Source of the DNA: an uncultured Gammaproteobacteria bacterium
Lineage (GTDB): Bacteria; Pseudomonadota; Gammaproteobacteria; HyVt-429
DNA: 64,000 bases
NCBI GenBank assembly: GCA_947259975.1
Contig: CAMYOD010000009.1
Coordinates: 1-64,000, forward strand
Direction: 5' to 3'
Position 1 is the stretch's first letter. Each line of letters opens with the position of its first letter. Under the pieces are notes generated by a model. The model did not search any database. It worked only from the letters and a program-made list of their open reading frames with translations, and had not been told where the DNA came from. This document shows positions 3,397 to 25,867 of the stretch, in pieces. Position numbers and translations under genes: made by a program.

Positions 3397-3409
3397 ATTG
3401 CAGAGGATC

Positions 3410-3516
3410 AATGGGGTCAGACTCGATTGATTGTCTGGGGCTCAATCAATGGTGATCAATCGAGTCTGACCCCATTGATTATTAATGGTGATCAATCGAG
3501 TCTGACCCCATTGATT
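3410..3516. repeat. REP-like palindrome with a tandemly duplicated right arm
   Basis: The left arm (AATGGGGTCAGACTCGATT, from 3410) pairs with a right arm at 3455-3476 (AATCGAGTCTGACCCCATT). A 33-bp segment containing the right arm is then repeated almost at once (3448-3480 and 3484-3516, period 36 bp), giving one left arm and two right arms. The 4229-4281 element is the simple form. No spacer variety, so not a CRISPR. Confidence 0.8.
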
Positions 3517-3613: not shown

Positions 3614-3892
3614 ATGATAAGGACGTTTCGCTGCCGGGACACGGAGTCCCTGTTCATGGACGAGCCCGTGGCGCGTTTTTGCGCTATCGAGCGCGTCGCC
3701 CGGCGCAAACTGATGTACCTGCATGCCGCGCGGCGACTGACCGACCTGCGCTCCCCGCCCGGTAACCGCCTCGAGACGCTCAAGGGCGATCGCCAGGGGC
3801 AATACAGTATCCGTATAAATAGCCAATGGCGGATCTGTTTTCGTTGGCAGGACGGGCATGCGTTTGACGTCGAGATTGTCGATTACCACTGA
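3614..3892 (+). CDS. higB: HigB toxin (plasmid-maintenance killer family)
   Basis: The 92-residue sequence fits the HigB/killer family of RelE-like toxins: MIRTFRCRDTESLF, ERVARRKLMYLHAARRLTDLRSPPGNRLE, then YSIRINSQWRICFRW and a C-terminal VEIVDYH. The final histidine and the preceding basic residues are the conserved active-site region of this RNase fold. The antitoxin gene follows after 9 bp. It belongs to a different HigB subfamily from the Gp49-like toxin at 276-626 although the flanks are shared. Confidence 0.92.
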   Translation: MIRTFRCRDTESLFMDEPVARFCAIERVARRKLMYLHAARRLTDLRSPPGNRLETLKGDRQGQYSIRINSQWRICFRWQDGHAFDVEIVDYH

Positions 3893-3901
3893 GATGTAGC
3901 G

Positions 3902-4207
3902 ATGCCGAGAAAGACCAAAAAGCTAACCCCGATCCATCCGGGCGAGATCCTGCGTGAGGAGTTCATGCGCCCATTGGAGATCAGCATCAATCGCCTGGCG
4001 CGAGACATCGCGGTGCCGCCCAATCGCATCAGCGAGATCGTCAATGGCAAGCGCGGCATCACCGCCGACACCGCCCTGCGCCTGGCGCGTTACTTCAAGA
4101 CGACACCGGAGACCTGGATGGCGCTGCAGACGGAATACGACCTGCGAGTTGCCGAGCGCACCGTCGGCGCCGAGGTTAAGAAGCGGGTGCACCCGGTGGC
4201 GGCCTAG
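3902..4207 (+). CDS. higA: HigA antitoxin
   Basis: A 101-residue protein with the diagnostic HigA opening IHPGEILREEFMRPLEIS, an XRE helix-turn-helix (about residues 28-55, NRLARDIAVPPNRISEIVNGKRGI), and the TADTALRLARYFKTTPETWMALQ block shared by all HigA proteins. It should bind the palindrome at 3585-3603. The last two codons and stop lie in the 26-bp right-flank repeat, so its extreme C-terminus (VAA) may be dictated by the repeat. Confidence 0.93.
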   Translation: MPRKTKKLTPIHPGEILREEFMRPLEISINRLARDIAVPPNRISEIVNGKRGITADTALRLARYFKTTPETWMALQTEYDLRVAERTVGAEVKKRVHPVAA

Positions 4208-4222: not shown

Positions 4223-4228
4223 AGGATC

Positions 4229-4281
4229 AATGGGGTCAGACTCGATTGATCACCAGACAATCAATCGAGTCTGACCCCATT
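4229..4281. repeat. REP-like palindrome (GGGGTCAGACTCGATT type)
   Basis: Perfect 22-bp arms, starting AATGGGGTCAGACTCG (4229-4250) and ending CGAGTCTGACCCCATT (4260-4281), around a 9-base loop. This is the most complete member of its subfamily here. Confidence 0.85.
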
Positions 4282-4338
4282 GATTGCTATTCCAGTCGTT
4301 CAGGTTCAATCAACGAACGACTGGTTGATACTTTCAGT

Positions 4339-5361
4339 TCAATATCCGGCGCACCCCGGTAACCAGGATGCGGCTGGACGAACTTCTCCCACGGCAATGC
4401 CACTTGAGTTTACAATCGTTGGAGAGATATGAGCCTGAAGTTTATGTTTCTCTTCATCAGATAGAGCGCCCAGATGATCAAGGATCGCCAATAACGCGAC
4501 TGAACGTGCGCGGGCACTGCCATCCGCTATTTTCAATGCAATCCCCAGGCCTCGGTTAGGTAAGGCCGCAGTGACAACACCCTCGGCACCGGTTTTGGCT
4601 AGCACCCCACCTTTGGTGACTTCGTTCAACTCACTGACCACGCTCCCGTGGCCGGCAATATATAAAGGCTCATTGGTAATGGCCTCGTGAAGACGGTAGA
4701 TTGCCTGCGCCCGATAATCTGACATATCTACAGGCTCGGCGAAGCGGGCCGTGGCATGCCCGAGCTTGAGTAACGGCATCGTGGGTGCAGGTAGCCCACA
4801 TCCATCGATCCCCATGGGATACTGCTTAAGATCAATATCAGCCAGATCGGAGAGTATATCCAGTGATAATTGCTGTAAGGGATGTTCGATCTGGTGGTAA
4901 TTATCCAGCGGTAAATCCAGATACAGTGCCGTGGTTAAAAATCCGGTGTGCTTACCTGAGCAATTGTGGTGAATTCGACAGCCACGCTGTCCGGAAGCCA
5001 GTAACTGGTGAGCGCGCTCTGTATCTTCAGGTAGCACAGCGCCACAGGCTAAATGATCCTCCGTTAACCCCAGACGGGTTAGCCAGGATTCCACCAGATT
5101 TTGGTGCATTTGCTCACCCTGATGAGACGAACAGGCCAACGATAATTCTGCATCGCTTAGGGCATATTTGTTGCTGGCGCCACTCTCAACCAGATGAATT
5201 GCCAGCATCGGCTTTAGAGCAGAGCGCGGAAATACCAGGCTTTCGATGTCTCCCCAGCTTTCCACCACGCTGCCCTTAATATCGCACACGACGGCAGAAC
5301 CAAAATGCCGACTTTCCACAGTGCCATTACGTGTAACTTCGACTAAAAGTACATAGGACAT
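4339..5361 (-). CDS. L-asparaginase II, rhizobial type (PF06089)
   Basis: A 340-residue member of the Rhizobium etli-type asparaginases, which hydrolyse asparagine to aspartate and ammonia. The family's RSALKPM motif with the paired Ser-Lys appears near residue 47. The zinc-site motifs HHNCSGKHTGF and GIDGCGLPAP carry the Cys, Lys and Cys ligands known from the R. etli enzyme. A TTG 18 bp upstream is possible, but ATG at 5361 gives the canonical MSYVLLVEV start. It lies 27 bp downstream of an ATP-grasp gene and probably forms an operon with it. Base composition is clearly more AT-rich than the flanks. Confidence 0.88.
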   Translation of the reverse strand: MSYVLLVEVTRNGTVESRHFGSAVVCDIKGSVVESWGDIESLVFPRSALKPMLAIHLVESGASNKYALSDAELSLACSSHQGEQMHQNLVESWLTRLGLTEDHLACGAVLPEDTERAHQLLASGQRGCRIHHNCSGKHTGFLTTALYLDLPLDNYHQIEHPLQQLSLDILSDLADIDLKQYPMGIDGCGLPAPTMPLLKLGHATARFAEPVDMSDYRAQAIYRLHEAITNEPLYIAGHGSVVSELNEVTKGGVLAKTGAEGVVTAALPNRGLGIALKIADGSARARSVALLAILDHLGALSDEEKHKLQAHISPTIVNSSGIAVGEVRPAASWLPGCAGY

Positions 5362-5388
5362 GCAGCTGGAACTCCGCAATATACCTTC

Positions 5389-6408
5389 TTATACAGCAGC
5401 TACGAACTTGTTGTCTGAGTCAGGGAACATATTTGGGGGAAGGGTTGAGGTAGCTCTGCCAAGACCCCCGGCTAATAGTAGCTCGATCACTTTATCGTAT
5501 GAAAATTCATGCGCTAACTCACAGGCTTTAGGAAAATAGCTGGAACCATAGGTCATACCCGGCACCAGGTTCGCTTCCATGAAATAACATCCCCCATGAT
5601 TATCGGTTTTAATGTCGATGCGCCCAAAGTCCCTTGTGCCCAGGGCATTAAAAGCATCAATAGCCAGAGCTGTTATTCTGTTTTTTACTTCATCATCGAC
5701 AATTTCTATAAGTTTTTCTGAATCATCTTTTTTAGCCTGTGCCCCTAAAATCCTGAGCCCATGAGATGATGTCGGCGGTATAACTTCAACCGCAGATACT
5801 ATTAGCTTTTCATTGTGTGTTTTGATGACGGCAACGGTAAACTCACGACCATCCAGGTATTTTTCTACCAGAATTGGCTGATTGAATGAGTCGTATAACG
5901 ACATAACTTTATTTTCATAGTCTGAAAAACTGGTGACAAATGATAGATCGTCAATGCCGTTTCCATTTGCCGCATCCAATGGCTTTAAAAACAACGGGAA
6001 CGCGACGGGTAAGACACTTTCGGATGTATACTGCCCAGGGATCGCGATGAAGTATTCGGCCGTTTTGATACCTTTGTTTGTTAGATGTGTTTTAGCGAGC
6101 ACTTTGTTGGAATCAAATTTCAGCACTTCTCTTGATGAGCCGGTGTAGTTAATTCCATGTTCGGAAAAGTAATCAGACAGCCATATCTCAGTTCCATTTG
6201 TAGTAGGAATATACTTTACCGCCAAGATAACTAATTCAGGTTTTGTTTTGACAACCGCGTCCAGATGGTCTTTCGTTTCGCACACATTCAACTTGGCACT
6301 GTGCCCCATCCGCTGAATTGCGCCCAATACACTGTTACAAGCATTTAGCGCTCCAAAGCCACTTTCTTTTAATGCGTCATTGGGTGTAGTTATGATATCT
6401 ATATGCAT
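5389..6408 (-). CDS. D-alanine--D-alanine ligase-like ATP-grasp enzyme
   Basis: A 339-residue ATP-grasp protein. It has an N-terminal preATP-grasp domain, then LKPLDAANGNGI (nucleotide-binding loop), ILVEKYLDGREFTVAVI, and a C-terminal RDFGRIDIKTD...CYFMEANLVPGMT block with the metal- and ATP-binding residues of the Ddl family. It probably makes an amide or peptide bond between carboxylate and amine substrates. The substrate is unknown, and it is unlikely to be the cell-wall Ddl given its divergence and context. The asparaginase gene follows at 27 bp, suggesting an amide- or aspartate-linked product. The gene is AT-rich and may be acquired. Confidence 0.8.
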   Translation of the reverse strand: MHIDIITTPNDALKESGFGALNACNSVLGAIQRMGHSAKLNVCETKDHLDAVVKTKPELVILAVKYIPTTNGTEIWLSDYFSEHGINYTGSSREVLKFDSNKVLAKTHLTNKGIKTAEYFIAIPGQYTSESVLPVAFPLFLKPLDAANGNGIDDLSFVTSFSDYENKVMSLYDSFNQPILVEKYLDGREFTVAVIKTHNEKLIVSAVEVIPPTSSHGLRILGAQAKKDDSEKLIEIVDDEVKNRITALAIDAFNALGTRDFGRIDIKTDNHGGCYFMEANLVPGMTYGSSYFPKACELAHEFSYDKVIELLLAGGLGRATSTLPPNMFPDSDNKFVAAV

Positions 6409-6816
6409 TAGGGTCTTCCGAACTCAAAATTTCGTTTAGTTTTATGTAGAACAAAACGCCTGACGTCCAAAATTAGGACGCACTACACACAACCAGATGC
6501 GAAGAGAACAGCCAGATCGTTGGCTGCTCTATGATGAGGAACTGTGGATATTCTTTAATTGGATCAGCTAACAGACAATGCTGGGGCTAAAAAGAAGCCA
6601 CGGGAACATTATACAAGCCGCTAAATTCTACCATAAATCGGAAAGAGATTATTTCCTTATAATCGACACACCTCATATCTACAAATGGTGAAGGCACATA
6701 TAGAACTAGATAGGGTTCATGCTCCAAATTCACGATCGAAATTTATCAAAAGATGAAGAAACTGGGGTCTGACCCCGATTTCTCTCCGCGATTTCTCTCC
6801 GATTTCTTGGGCTGAT
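6409..6816. other. Intergenic region with a short ORF and a REP-like core
   Basis: This 408-bp AT-rich stretch holds the probable promoter of the ATP-grasp gene. It also has a 24-codon frame (6497-6571, MRREQPDRWLLYDEELW...) that may be a gene scrap, and a short GGGGTC-T-GACCCC palindrome (6764-6776) followed by the direct repeat GATTTCTCTCC (6777-6803). I see no convincing gene. Confidence 0.5.
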
Positions 6817-22624: not shown

Positions 22625-24496
22625 TTAGCCCTCCTCATCACCTACCAGGTGGTAAAGAGGCGCTTTCTCCATTGTGTACTCACCCGTGTCGGGATCGCGA
22701 CGAGAAACGGTCAACACGTGCCAGTTCTCATCATCCACTTTCATCGCATCACCACGGTAGTAGTAACCAGGCCAACGTGTCTCCTTACGGAACAACGTAT
22801 GCTGGAACACACTCTCAGAAGTAAGGAAACGATGCTTCAGTTCCCATGCACGTAGTAGCTCGTGTATGTCTTCTGCAGCGACTTTTTCCAGATCTTCTCC
22901 CAGAGTCGCCATCTTCTTAAGGCCGATTTGGAGAAGCTTTTCGTTGGTCATGTAGTTAACACCAAAACCACCGCAGTACTCATCCATCAGCTTCTGCAAA
23001 CGATCAAGACCCTGACGTGGGTTGATGAAGTTGGGGTTAACACTGCCGGCAACCACCTCGTTGCTGTAGACCTTGTAGGTCTCCATCGGCTTGTAGATCT
23101 CTTCCTTGCGACGCTGGATCTGATCGTCGGAAACCCTGATGCCCTCGCCCTTACCGTCATCGATGTACTGACAGGCCGCTTTGGCCGCCAGACGACCCTC
23201 GGTAAAAGAGCCGGACGAGAAGGCGTGGGGGGTGCCGCCGACGGCGTCACCGGCACCGAACAGACCTTCGACTGTGGTCATACGATTGTAGCCCCAGAAG
23301 TATTCATCTGGTGATACATCCTCAGGGCCTGAACACCAGGCACCACAACCCGTTGCGTGTGAACCCATTACGTAGGGCTCGGAAGTCGTCAGTTCCGGGT
23401 TTTCGTATTTCGGATCTACATCGGTAGCCGCCCAAAGCACCGCCTGACCAACCGTCATACCAAGGAAGTTGTGCCAACCGATCTCTTCAAGATGAGGATC
23501 CTGGAAGGCTTCCATGGTGACCATGTGGATAGGACCACGACCGGCATTGACCTCGGAGATCAATGCGTGGTTACGCAGACAGGTCGGAATGGGTCGATGC
23601 GTTAAGTGCGAAGCTTCCGGGTCCAGATATTCCTTACCTACCATTTCCTGTAGTTCCGGGAACCAATTGGACTCATACTCTTCGCCGAGACAGTTTTGAG
23701 TATACGTCTTCAGGTGCAGGAAGTAGGCGCCGACCGGGCCGTAACCATCCTTGAATCGAGCCAGGACGATACGGTTTTCCATTTGCGTCATCTTCGCGCC
23801 TGCTTCGATCATAAGACCATAGGCAGAACCCGATGACCATGGTGCGTACCAGACACGACCCGCACCTTCACCGACTGAACGCGGCTTGAAGATGTTGGAT
23901 GCGCCACCGGCACCGCAGATAACGGTCTTGGACTTAAATACGTGGTAGTTACCCGTACGTACATTGAAACCAACGGCACCGGCGACGCGGTTTTCCTTGG
24001 CCTCATCCATCAGCAGATGGGTTACGCAGATACGATTGAACACCTTGTCGGCCGATTTTTTCGCCGCCTCGGCAACGATAGGCTTATAAGATTCACCGTG
24101 AATCATGATCTGCCAACGACCTTCGCGCAGATAGGCCCCCGTCTTGGTGTTGCGCATGATCGGCAACCCCCAGTCTTCGAACTGGTGTACAGCGGAGTCG
24201 ACGTGGCGCGCCATATCGAAAGCCAGATCCTCACGCACCATACCCATCAGATCGATACGTGCATAACGTACGTGATCTTCCGGGTTGTTCTCGCCGAAAC
24301 GGGTACCCATATAACAGTTGATCGCATACAAGCCCTGAGCTACCGCGCCAGAACGATCGATGTTGGCTTTTTCTGCAATGACAATTTTCTTGTCCTTGCC
24401 CCAATACCGTGCTTCAAACGCAGCACCGGTACCGCCAAGGCCAGCACCCGCTACCAGAATATCGATATCGTCTTCAATAATTGTCTTGTAGCCCAT
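22625..24496 (-). CDS. aprA: Adenylylsulfate reductase alpha subunit
   Basis: A 623-residue flavoprotein subunit of dissimilatory APS reductase, which in sulfur oxidizers runs in reverse to turn sulfite and AMP into adenosine 5'-phosphosulfate. The FAD-binding N-terminus is ILVAGAGLGGTGAAFEARYWG. Further family segments include AVAQGLYAINCYMGTR, CGAGGASNIFKPRS, HATGCGAWCSGP and GLFGAGDAVGGTPHAFSSGSF. The length is normal for AprA. The start overlaps the aprB stop by one base (24496). Confidence 0.97.
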   Translation of the reverse strand: MGYKTIIEDDIDILVAGAGLGGTGAAFEARYWGKDKKIVIAEKANIDRSGAVAQGLYAINCYMGTRFGENNPEDHVRYARIDLMGMVREDLAFDMARHVDSAVHQFEDWGLPIMRNTKTGAYLREGRWQIMIHGESYKPIVAEAAKKSADKVFNRICVTHLLMDEAKENRVAGAVGFNVRTGNYHVFKSKTVICGAGGASNIFKPRSVGEGAGRVWYAPWSSGSAYGLMIEAGAKMTQMENRIVLARFKDGYGPVGAYFLHLKTYTQNCLGEEYESNWFPELQEMVGKEYLDPEASHLTHRPIPTCLRNHALISEVNAGRGPIHMVTMEAFQDPHLEEIGWHNFLGMTVGQAVLWAATDVDPKYENPELTTSEPYVMGSHATGCGAWCSGPEDVSPDEYFWGYNRMTTVEGLFGAGDAVGGTPHAFSSGSFTEGRLAAKAACQYIDDGKGEGIRVSDDQIQRRKEEIYKPMETYKVYSNEVVAGSVNPNFINPRQGLDRLQKLMDEYCGGFGVNYMTNEKLLQIGLKKMATLGEDLEKVAAEDIHELLRAWELKHRFLTSESVFQHTLFRKETRWPGYYYRGDAMKVDDENWHVLTVSRRDPDTGEYTMEKAPLYHLVGDEEG

Positions 24497-24978
24497 TAGT
24501 AGTACACCCCTTCTTTAAGTTTCAAGCCATTTGATTCCAGGGTATGTAAATCGCCTTCATCCATGCGGACATACTTAGGCTCGTTGAACAATAGCTGACC
24601 GCCACGCATTTCATTACTTGGCGCCGGCTCTTCAGACAGCTCAGGAAATCCTGTGCCCCAGGGCTTCGTGGTGATAGGCGCCAGAAGGTCCATGTCTTTT
24701 TTGCCGTTGCGGAACTTGATGCGCCAGGCAATCGTGCCTTTTTCCTCATCACGGTGCACTCGTACCGAGTGACCCAGTGGAGCGAAATCTGCATAGCCAC
24801 GTACATCAATCGCGTGATGCGGGCAGGCTTTTACGCAGGAATAACATTCCCAGCACATATTAGGCTCAATGTTGTAAGCACGGCGAAGCGTTTTATCGAT
24901 GTGCATGATGTCAGATGGGCAGATATCAACGCACTGACCACAACCATCACAACGAGTCATATATACAAAAGTAGGCAT
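24496..24978 (-). CDS. aprB: Adenylylsulfate reductase beta subunit, 2x[4Fe-4S]
   Basis: A 160-residue ferredoxin-like subunit carrying two cubane clusters: CDGCGQCVDICPSDIMHID and CWECYSCVKACPHHAIDV. It moves electrons between the FAD of AprA and the membrane side. The C-terminal extension (from about residue 100) wraps around AprA in known structures. It sits between aprM (43 bp upstream) and aprA. Confidence 0.97.
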   Translation of the reverse strand: MPTFVYMTRCDGCGQCVDICPSDIMHIDKTLRRAYNIEPNMCWECYSCVKACPHHAIDVRGYADFAPLGHSVRVHRDEEKGTIAWRIKFRNGKKDMDLLAPITTKPWGTGFPELSEEPAPSNEMRGGQLLFNEPKYVRMDEGDLHTLESNGLKLKEGVYY

Positions 24979-25021
24979 GTGTTCTTCCTCTATCTTAGGG
25001 CCAAATTAGTTAAGCAAGTGT

Positions 25022-25867
25022 TTAGTAGTGTTTTGCCGATTCACGCCTAATACCTTGCCCCATATAAGCTGGGTTCGTGCCCATATATTCCGGGATATCC
25101 GGAAACTTTCTCTGTACTTCAGGATCCGTCAGATCGTAATCGGCAGGCAGATTCTCTCTTGAACCATCCGCTACAGTAACTTTCTTCTGGTATGCCGCGG
25201 CGGGCTTGAAGAACATGTGCGCAAACTTGGACCACAGAACGGTACCAAATAGCGTCGTGCTGGAAATGATGAACAGCACGAAGAACAGGGTGGTCCAGCC
25301 ACCCATGCCGCTCGACTGGGCATAGGACCAGATCAGGCCGAAGGTCGCAGTGGACAGCAGCCCGAGGATGAACAGGTCGGCACGCACCAGGCGATACCAT
25401 TTTGCCCCTTCCGCGGCCACGTCGACGCGGACGAAAAACCAGAACCAGTAGCCGCCGATGCAGAGCATCAGTGCGCCAATGTGCCAGAGCATCGGCCACA
25501 GCCCGGCCGCAGCCTCGCCCGGGTAGTTAAAGATCATGACGGCGGTCGCCACCACGAAAAGGATGAAACCGTACATGGTGAGCAGATGAGAGAGACGGCG
25601 CTTTACATTCTTGAATTCACCGGAGGTCAGCACTTCGTTGGCCAGCGTTGAAACCGCGAGTCCGGCTTTTTCACCGGCACTAACCTCACGTTTGGCGCTC
25701 TTCTTGGCTTTTTCCGCATTTTCGAAAAAGTACTGCGCGCTTTTCTTGTGAATCATGTCAAGTATCGTACCGCCGACGACCAGAAGGGCCATAAGGATCA
25801 CATAGGCCTGCATGATCGCGGGTGATATGGACGCCGAAAGCTCGGCGAAGGGATTGCTCATGAACAT
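25022..25867 (-). CDS. aprM: APS reductase membrane subunit AprM
   Basis: A 281-residue protein with five to six predicted helices, first at about 17-37 and then clustered between 92 and 225. It matches AprM, the proposed membrane electron acceptor or anchor for AprBA in Chromatiaceae and Thiobacillus-like sulfur oxidizers. These lineages lack the QmoABC module expected in sulfate reducers. GAGGA lies 7 bp before the first ATG (25867), favouring MFMSNP over the second ATG two codons on. It is the first gene of the aprMBA operon. Confidence 0.9.
   Translation of the reverse strand: MFMSNPFAELSASISPAIMQAYVILMALLVVGGTILDMIHKKSAQYFFENAEKAKKSAKREVSAGEKAGLAVSTLANEVLTSGEFKNVKRRLSHLLTMYGFILFVVATAVMIFNYPGEAAAGLWPMLWHIGALMLCIGGYWFWFFVRVDVAAEGAKWYRLVRADLFILGLLSTATFGLIWSYAQSSGMGGWTTLFFVLFIISSTTLFGTVLWSKFAHMFFKPAAAYQKKVTVADGSRENLPADYDLTDPEVQRKFPDIPEYMGTNPAYMGQGIRRESAKHY

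Follow-up and report, generated by a model that had tools for sequence, protein, structure and literature searches.

In the 64,000-nucleotide stretch of DNA analysed here (the window), the gene of an ATP-grasp ligase resembling D-Ala-D-Ala ligase (Ddl) stands next to the gene of a putative zinc-type L-asparaginase. What could such a ligase make, and why does it stand beside an asparaginase? An earlier note on this DNA had read the pair as a small pathway that builds and trims an aspartate- or asparagine-linked metabolite, and not as a cell-wall cluster. The two open reading frames that it placed at 4339-6408, 27 bp apart, are both real genes, located as described and backed by Pfam. The features of the locus are as follows.

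3614-4207: HigBA-type toxin-antitoxin pair, between 23-bp repeats and just beyond the asparaginase gene
4339..5361, minus strand: gene of a predicted class 3 (Rhizobium etli type, zinc) asparaginase, 340 aa (PF06089, 8cly, kept catalytic and zinc residues)
5362..5388: intergenic gap, 27 bp between the stop codon of the ligase gene and the ATG of the asparaginase gene; the spacing differs among relatives
5389..6408, minus strand: gene of a predicted ATP-grasp ligase with the Ddl fold, 339 aa, of a distinct marine family and apparently not the housekeeping Ddl (PF07478, AlphaFold model)
6409..6690, minus strand: conserved region upstream of the ligase; it holds a leader of ~220 nt and, near 6629-6637, a promoter-like TTTATGGTA

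The two genes and their composition

The asparaginase matches PF06089 with an E-value of 1.5e-107 (359.7 bits, gathering score 25), and the ligase matches PF07478 with 4.7e-23 (82.2 bits). The 5' end of the asparaginase gene was set at the ATG at 5361; an extension to a TTG would reach 5379. Purifying selection acts on both genes, with dN/dS of about 0.09-0.16 in seven pairwise comparisons per gene. Since the ratio is low in all 14 comparisons, both look like functional genes. Neither gene matched the defence-gene library, and Rfam, searched near the pair with E up to 1, gave sub-threshold matches only.

Among solved chains, the nearest to the asparaginase is 8cly (E 4.4e-67), followed by ReAV (7os3). 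The roles of the zinc ligands, the Ser-Lys pairs and Arg47 in class 3 asparaginases are described in the available parts of two papers (PMC8602277, PMC12292245). The subfamily of the window asparaginase keeps the zinc ligands Cys135, Lys138 and Cys189, and likewise Ser48-Lys51, Ser80-Lys263 and Arg47, in every row covering the position (22 to 25 of 25 rows). His139, Tyr156 and Asp187 are also shared with ReAIV and ReAV of Rhizobium etli. Unlike these enzymes, the subfamily has Val in place of ReAV Cys249 (22 of 22 covering members), and the genomic partner of the window enzyme is an ATP-grasp ligase. The same position is Cys in 8, Asp in 6 and Pro in 1 of 15 other homologues. Because seven of the 15 thus also lack the cysteine, we did not take the valine as subfamily-defining. 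Judged by its residues and nearest matches, the enzyme is a class 3 asparaginase of the Rhizobium etli type, as the earlier note had it.

The pair had also been said to differ in base composition from its surroundings. This is supported by the GC content, which is 0.43 in the ligase, 0.52 in the asparaginase and 0.61 in the neighbouring genes, and by the third-position GC in the window (0.41, 0.50 and 0.74, respectively). Third-position GC is similar in L032, with 0.34 for the ligase and 0.43 for the asparaginase versus 0.71. In 71 of 74 scorable loci, the neighbouring genes are richer in GC than the ligase. The AT-richness of the ligase is thus a trait of the family as a whole and more than a mark of recent arrival, and composition on its own would overstate how recent the arrival was.

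The 13 upstream regions of the ligase gene that were aligned, all from the window's clade, have in common a promoter-like TNATGGTA, which lies ~220 nt before the ligase start in the spacing of the window. They also share further conserved blocks, with the middle part absent from L027. No consensus fold of the leader RNA was obtained by RNAalifold on 11 upstream sequences (0 pairs); the window leader alone folds at a z of -1.86.

Linkage and transfer of the pair

A ligase search of 369 genomes of the class at E 1e-25 gave 13 matches, two of them distant (30% identity). At 53% or more identity, the family is present in 11 of the 369 genomes, the window's own included. In three genomes of the same family as the host, neither the ligase nor the asparaginase was found at the thresholds used. 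A genome_contigs scan with the single ligase sequence gave no relatives; the scan with an alignment of the 11 ligases did find them, and the best 80 of 99 were retained. The records of these best 80 are gammaproteobacterial in 52 cases, alphaproteobacterial in 11, campylobacterotal in 9 and other in 8; several of them are short metagenomic contigs and possibly misbinned. Viral contigs contained no ligase relatives, and plasmid and phage records gave distant matches only, all under 60% identity.

A relative of the window asparaginase lies near the ligase in 23 of 81 loci (the window and the best 80 of 99), and with the class genomes L018 and L019 the count becomes 25 of 83. This is a lower bound, since contig ends hide flanks, for example in L094, L044 and L084. 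The asparaginase gene is downstream of the ligase on the same strand in 22 of the 25 linked loci, at a distance of 9 to 309 bp; it is upstream in L042, convergent in L066 and divergent in L018. With a gap so variable and three other arrangements, a single mRNA is not certain. In L017/L034, one genome that was reached twice, the asparaginase frame is short by ~30 N-terminal residues.

The linkage was also seen from the side of the asparaginase. The search of the same 369 genomes at E 1e-40 gave 22 matches, of which 7 have 78-100% identity and 15 have 32-45%, with none between 45% and 78%. All seven close asparaginases adjoin the ligase. The remaining 4 of the 11 ligase genomes have no asparaginase match at E 1e-40; one of the four is only 84% complete. 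Fisher's exact test of 7/11 against 0/358 gives p 1.9e-12, uncorrected for relatedness, but the seven genomes represent seven different families. The ligase and the asparaginase are thus linked well above chance. In the ligase tree, built by a quick method and with many weak forks, the window falls in a clade of 19 rows, 17 of which are linked to the asparaginase; the exceptions are L035 and L094, whose contig stops within the ligase. Elsewhere in the tree, linked rows lie within the L043 group and at L042, L018 and L066.

The earlier note had named restriction of the pair to this one genome as what would refute it. No such restriction was seen, with the pair in 7 of the 369 class genomes and in 25 of the 83 loci. 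Repeated co-occurrence across distant taxa, which the note had named as support, was borne out in part: it holds across families of Gammaproteobacteria, and outside them the only case is a 3.2-kb contig binned as Desulfobacterales. The open-access literature searched gave no description of the ligase-asparaginase pair, and the available part of PMC9500103 makes no mention of ATP-grasp, ligase, operon or genomic context.

How has the pair reached these genomes? Of 16 genomes tested, 14 gave a match to the host Ddl, with identities of 46-61%. Compared with the window, genome L026 has 61% identity for Ddl, 77% for the ligase and 84% for the asparaginase, and genome L032 has 60%, 74% and 83%. The values for genome L028 are 46%, 79% and 82%, where the Ddl match could be a paralogue. 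To such distant relatives, both proteins of the pair show a higher identity than the true Ddl does, so the pair moves horizontally. On these identities, its two genes travel together among Gammaproteobacteria that are unrelated to one another, both sulfur-oxidisers and other marine members of the class. In the three genomes of the host's family, the genes flanking the pair have no more than distant matches. A 23-bp repeat occurs five times in exact copies, arranged in inverted fashion, at 3407-3515 and 4226-4284 of the window, where none is expected by chance. These repeats look to us like REP-type elements.

Possible roles of the ligase and the asparaginase

Does the asparaginase change what the ligase does? 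At 16 catalytic and pocket positions, the main residue is the same in 25 linked and 56 unlinked ligases, most without exception (L035 and L094 were left out of this comparison). The position that best discriminates the two groups, 207, shows a conservative Val/Ile change. Since linked and unlinked ligases thus share their catalytic residues, the family probably carries out a single reaction, with the asparaginase as an auxiliary; most likely, the asparaginase does not change the ligase chemistry. The ligase does not need the asparaginase, because most ligase loci are without it.

The reading that we tentatively favour is a transferred two-gene cassette, in which the ligase would make a soluble dipeptide-like metabolite and the asparaginase would supply aspartate or ammonia. 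The ligase would convert the carboxylate of an amino-acid-like substrate into an acyl phosphate and join it to the amine of a second such molecule, giving a product other than D-Ala-D-Ala. In the proposed type of reaction, it is likened to the L-amino-acid ligases of the ATP-grasp superfamily, which include BacD and others. All members of the family would carry out this same reaction. In the gammaproteobacterial branch, the asparaginase would split asparagine into aspartate and ammonia, feeding either the ligase or the surrounding nitrogen economy. Against the cassette counts the position of the linked ligases in at least four separate places of the tree, which is a quick one with weak forks.

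It is possible, if unlikely, that the ligase product is an aspartate- or asparagine-linked compound from which the asparaginase removes the amide or the residue, along the lines of the earlier note. That a single asparaginase subfamily goes specifically with the ligase fits this idea, and the valine found at the Cys249 position in 22 of 22 members could alter asparaginase specificity. However, 58 of 83 ligase loci show no asparaginase nearby, and the unlinked ligases that were compared have the same catalytic residues. The site for free asparagine (Arg47, Ser48 and the zinc ligands) is intact, and 7 of 15 other homologues are likewise without Cys249. In proposing this pathway, the note reached further than the evidence.

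We also consider it unlikely that the asparaginase is co-transferred cargo, serving nitrogen or aspartate supply without connection to the ligase product. Cargo would explain the varying spacing and the three rearranged loci, and the window pair has repeats and toxin-antitoxin genes at its side, which is consistent with it. On the other hand, among the 369 genomes this asparaginase subfamily occurs exclusively next to the ligase, and it also accompanies the ligase in separate ligase clades.

The genes around the ligase in other loci were compared as well. Within ~10 kb, the recurrent neighbours are, in raw counts over 81 loci, an AlaDh_PNT dehydrogenase (6), an HflK/HflC-like pair (6), DUF1488 (5), a Cys-rich secreted repeat protein (11) and cold-shock proteins (11). 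Some of them also occur in asparaginase-linked loci. The count of six dehydrogenase loci leaves out L057, whose gene, 9 kb off, is by eye a generic alanine dehydrogenase. In ligase genomes, the dehydrogenase was found at 66% or more identity in 9 of 40, the query's own counted, plus one match at 28%. It was rejected as a general partner of the ligase, being present without the ligase in six class genomes. The recurrent neighbours hint at stress-related islands, and those of the unlinked ligases (dehydrogenase, HflK/HflC-like, Cys-rich secreted and cold-shock proteins) do not name a pathway. Judged by distribution and neighbours, the role may be one of protection under marine, cold or high-pressure conditions.

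Several other observations concern these loci. A second HflK/HflC-like pair lies near the ligase in members of different classes (L028, L066, L071, L077, L090 and L093), and some of these loci also carry a DUF1488 gene and a secreted Cys-rich protein with WECxxGY repeats. Cold-shock domain proteins are encoded a few genes from the ligase in L038, L041, L057, L060, L100, L102, L103 and L104. Seven of 81 loci have DsrC-family genes close to the ligase (L028 5498-5902 and its relatives), which fits sulfur-oxidising hosts. At 22625-25867 of the window, an AT-richer region carries open reading frames that we take, by eye, to encode the alpha subunit of APS reductase and a Qmo-type membrane subunit; they suggest a sulfur-metabolising host.

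The ligase compared with Ddl and with the piezophile enzyme

The AlphaFold model of the ligase (mean pLDDT 90) has DdlB (8evy_A) as its best fold match, with Z 31.3 and an rmsd of 2.5 over 286 residues, and matches Ddl over the whole length. The matches listed in the fold search are Ddl and related ligases, profile searches with the ligase sequence put Ddl-type chains on top, and BacD-type enzymes are absent among the matches listed in both. The ligase nevertheless scores below the curated Ddl cut-offs (85.4 versus 245.65 bits for TIGR01205, 98.2 versus 243 bits for NF002378). The host genome has a separate Ddl on another contig, between genes that, judged by eye, look like murB and ftsQ.

In an alignment with the Ddl of its own genome, the residues for ATP and magnesium are conserved in the ligase, whereas those on the D-Ala side are replaced; the alignment of the omega-loop is uncertain. 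The ATP/magnesium residues R263, D265, E278 and N280, in our assignment Arg255, Asp257, Glu270 and Asn272 of E. coli Ddl, are invariant or nearly so across the family, and the E15 position is likewise common to both enzymes. In the same numbering, we take Ser150, Tyr216 and Leu282 to be the residues of the D-Ala site. The ligase has an Asn in a loop at Ser150 and Tyr291 at Leu282, and its omega-loop segment, within the limits of the alignment there, is without a Tyr at Tyr216. The invariant set of the family itself includes E15, K65, Y66, N148, N150, E208, K226, S290 and Y291. By the model and the alignments, the ligase thus has the predicted fold of Ddl and an intact site for ATP and magnesium, but not the substrate site of Ddl.

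An extra, piezophile-specific D-Ala-D-Ala ligase in Colwellia, Psychromonas hadalis, Shewanella benthica and Moritella yayanosii is described in PMC7542103. The part of that paper available to us gives it a location in a flagellar operon and suggests a peptidoglycan role drawn from annotation; its main text does not mention an asparaginase. Our family has members in Colwellia sp. TT2012 (L061), C. marinimaniae MTCD1 (L062) and P. hadalis (L054), and in S. benthica KT99 (L059, 8636-13384) the ligase lies between the FlhB-family and FHIPEP genes of the flagellar operon. Because the organisms are shared and the flagellar location recurs, the family is probably the extra ligase of that paper; a location in variable regions is common to both as well. 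In contrast to the published account, we find the Ddl substrate residues absent, members in many other lineages, and an asparaginase paired with the ligase in the gammaproteobacterial branch.

That the ligase is a true Ddl with the published peptidoglycan role, and the asparaginase an unrelated passenger, is improbable. The common fold, the PF07478 match and the assignment in PMC7542103, as far as available, favour it. However, the bit scores fall short of the curated cut-offs, the equivalents of Tyr216, Ser150 and Leu282 are replaced, and the family has invariant residues of its own, including Asn148, Asn150, Glu208, Ser290 and Tyr291. The genomes also retain a separate Ddl, and the role proposed in the available part of PMC7542103 was inferred from annotation. 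The published peptidoglycan assignment therefore looks doubtful, and the earlier note was probably right that this is not a cell-wall ligase. Finally, an asparagine-dependent two-part amidotransferase passed among marine bacteria as a cassette, with the asparaginase freeing ammonia and the ligase amidating an activated carboxylate, would suit the specific linkage and would resemble some glutamine amidotransferases, in which a glutaminase-like hydrolase is paired with an ATP-grasp synthetase, but it is very improbable, since most ligases have no partner and the active sites are alike in linked and unlinked members.

The hosts of the ligase also presumably include coastal and shallow ones, for example Sulfurospirillum arcachonense and Marinagarivorans algicola, which argues against strict piezophile specificity. 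A ligase family singled out as a deep-sea adaptation, and so far taken for a cell-wall enzyme, probably has another function, which puts the annotation behind the adaptation arguments in question. One branch of the family is tied to a specific asparaginase subfamily. The substrate of the ligase becomes a concrete biochemical question, for which cultured hosts are available in Colwellia, Psychromonas and Shewanella.
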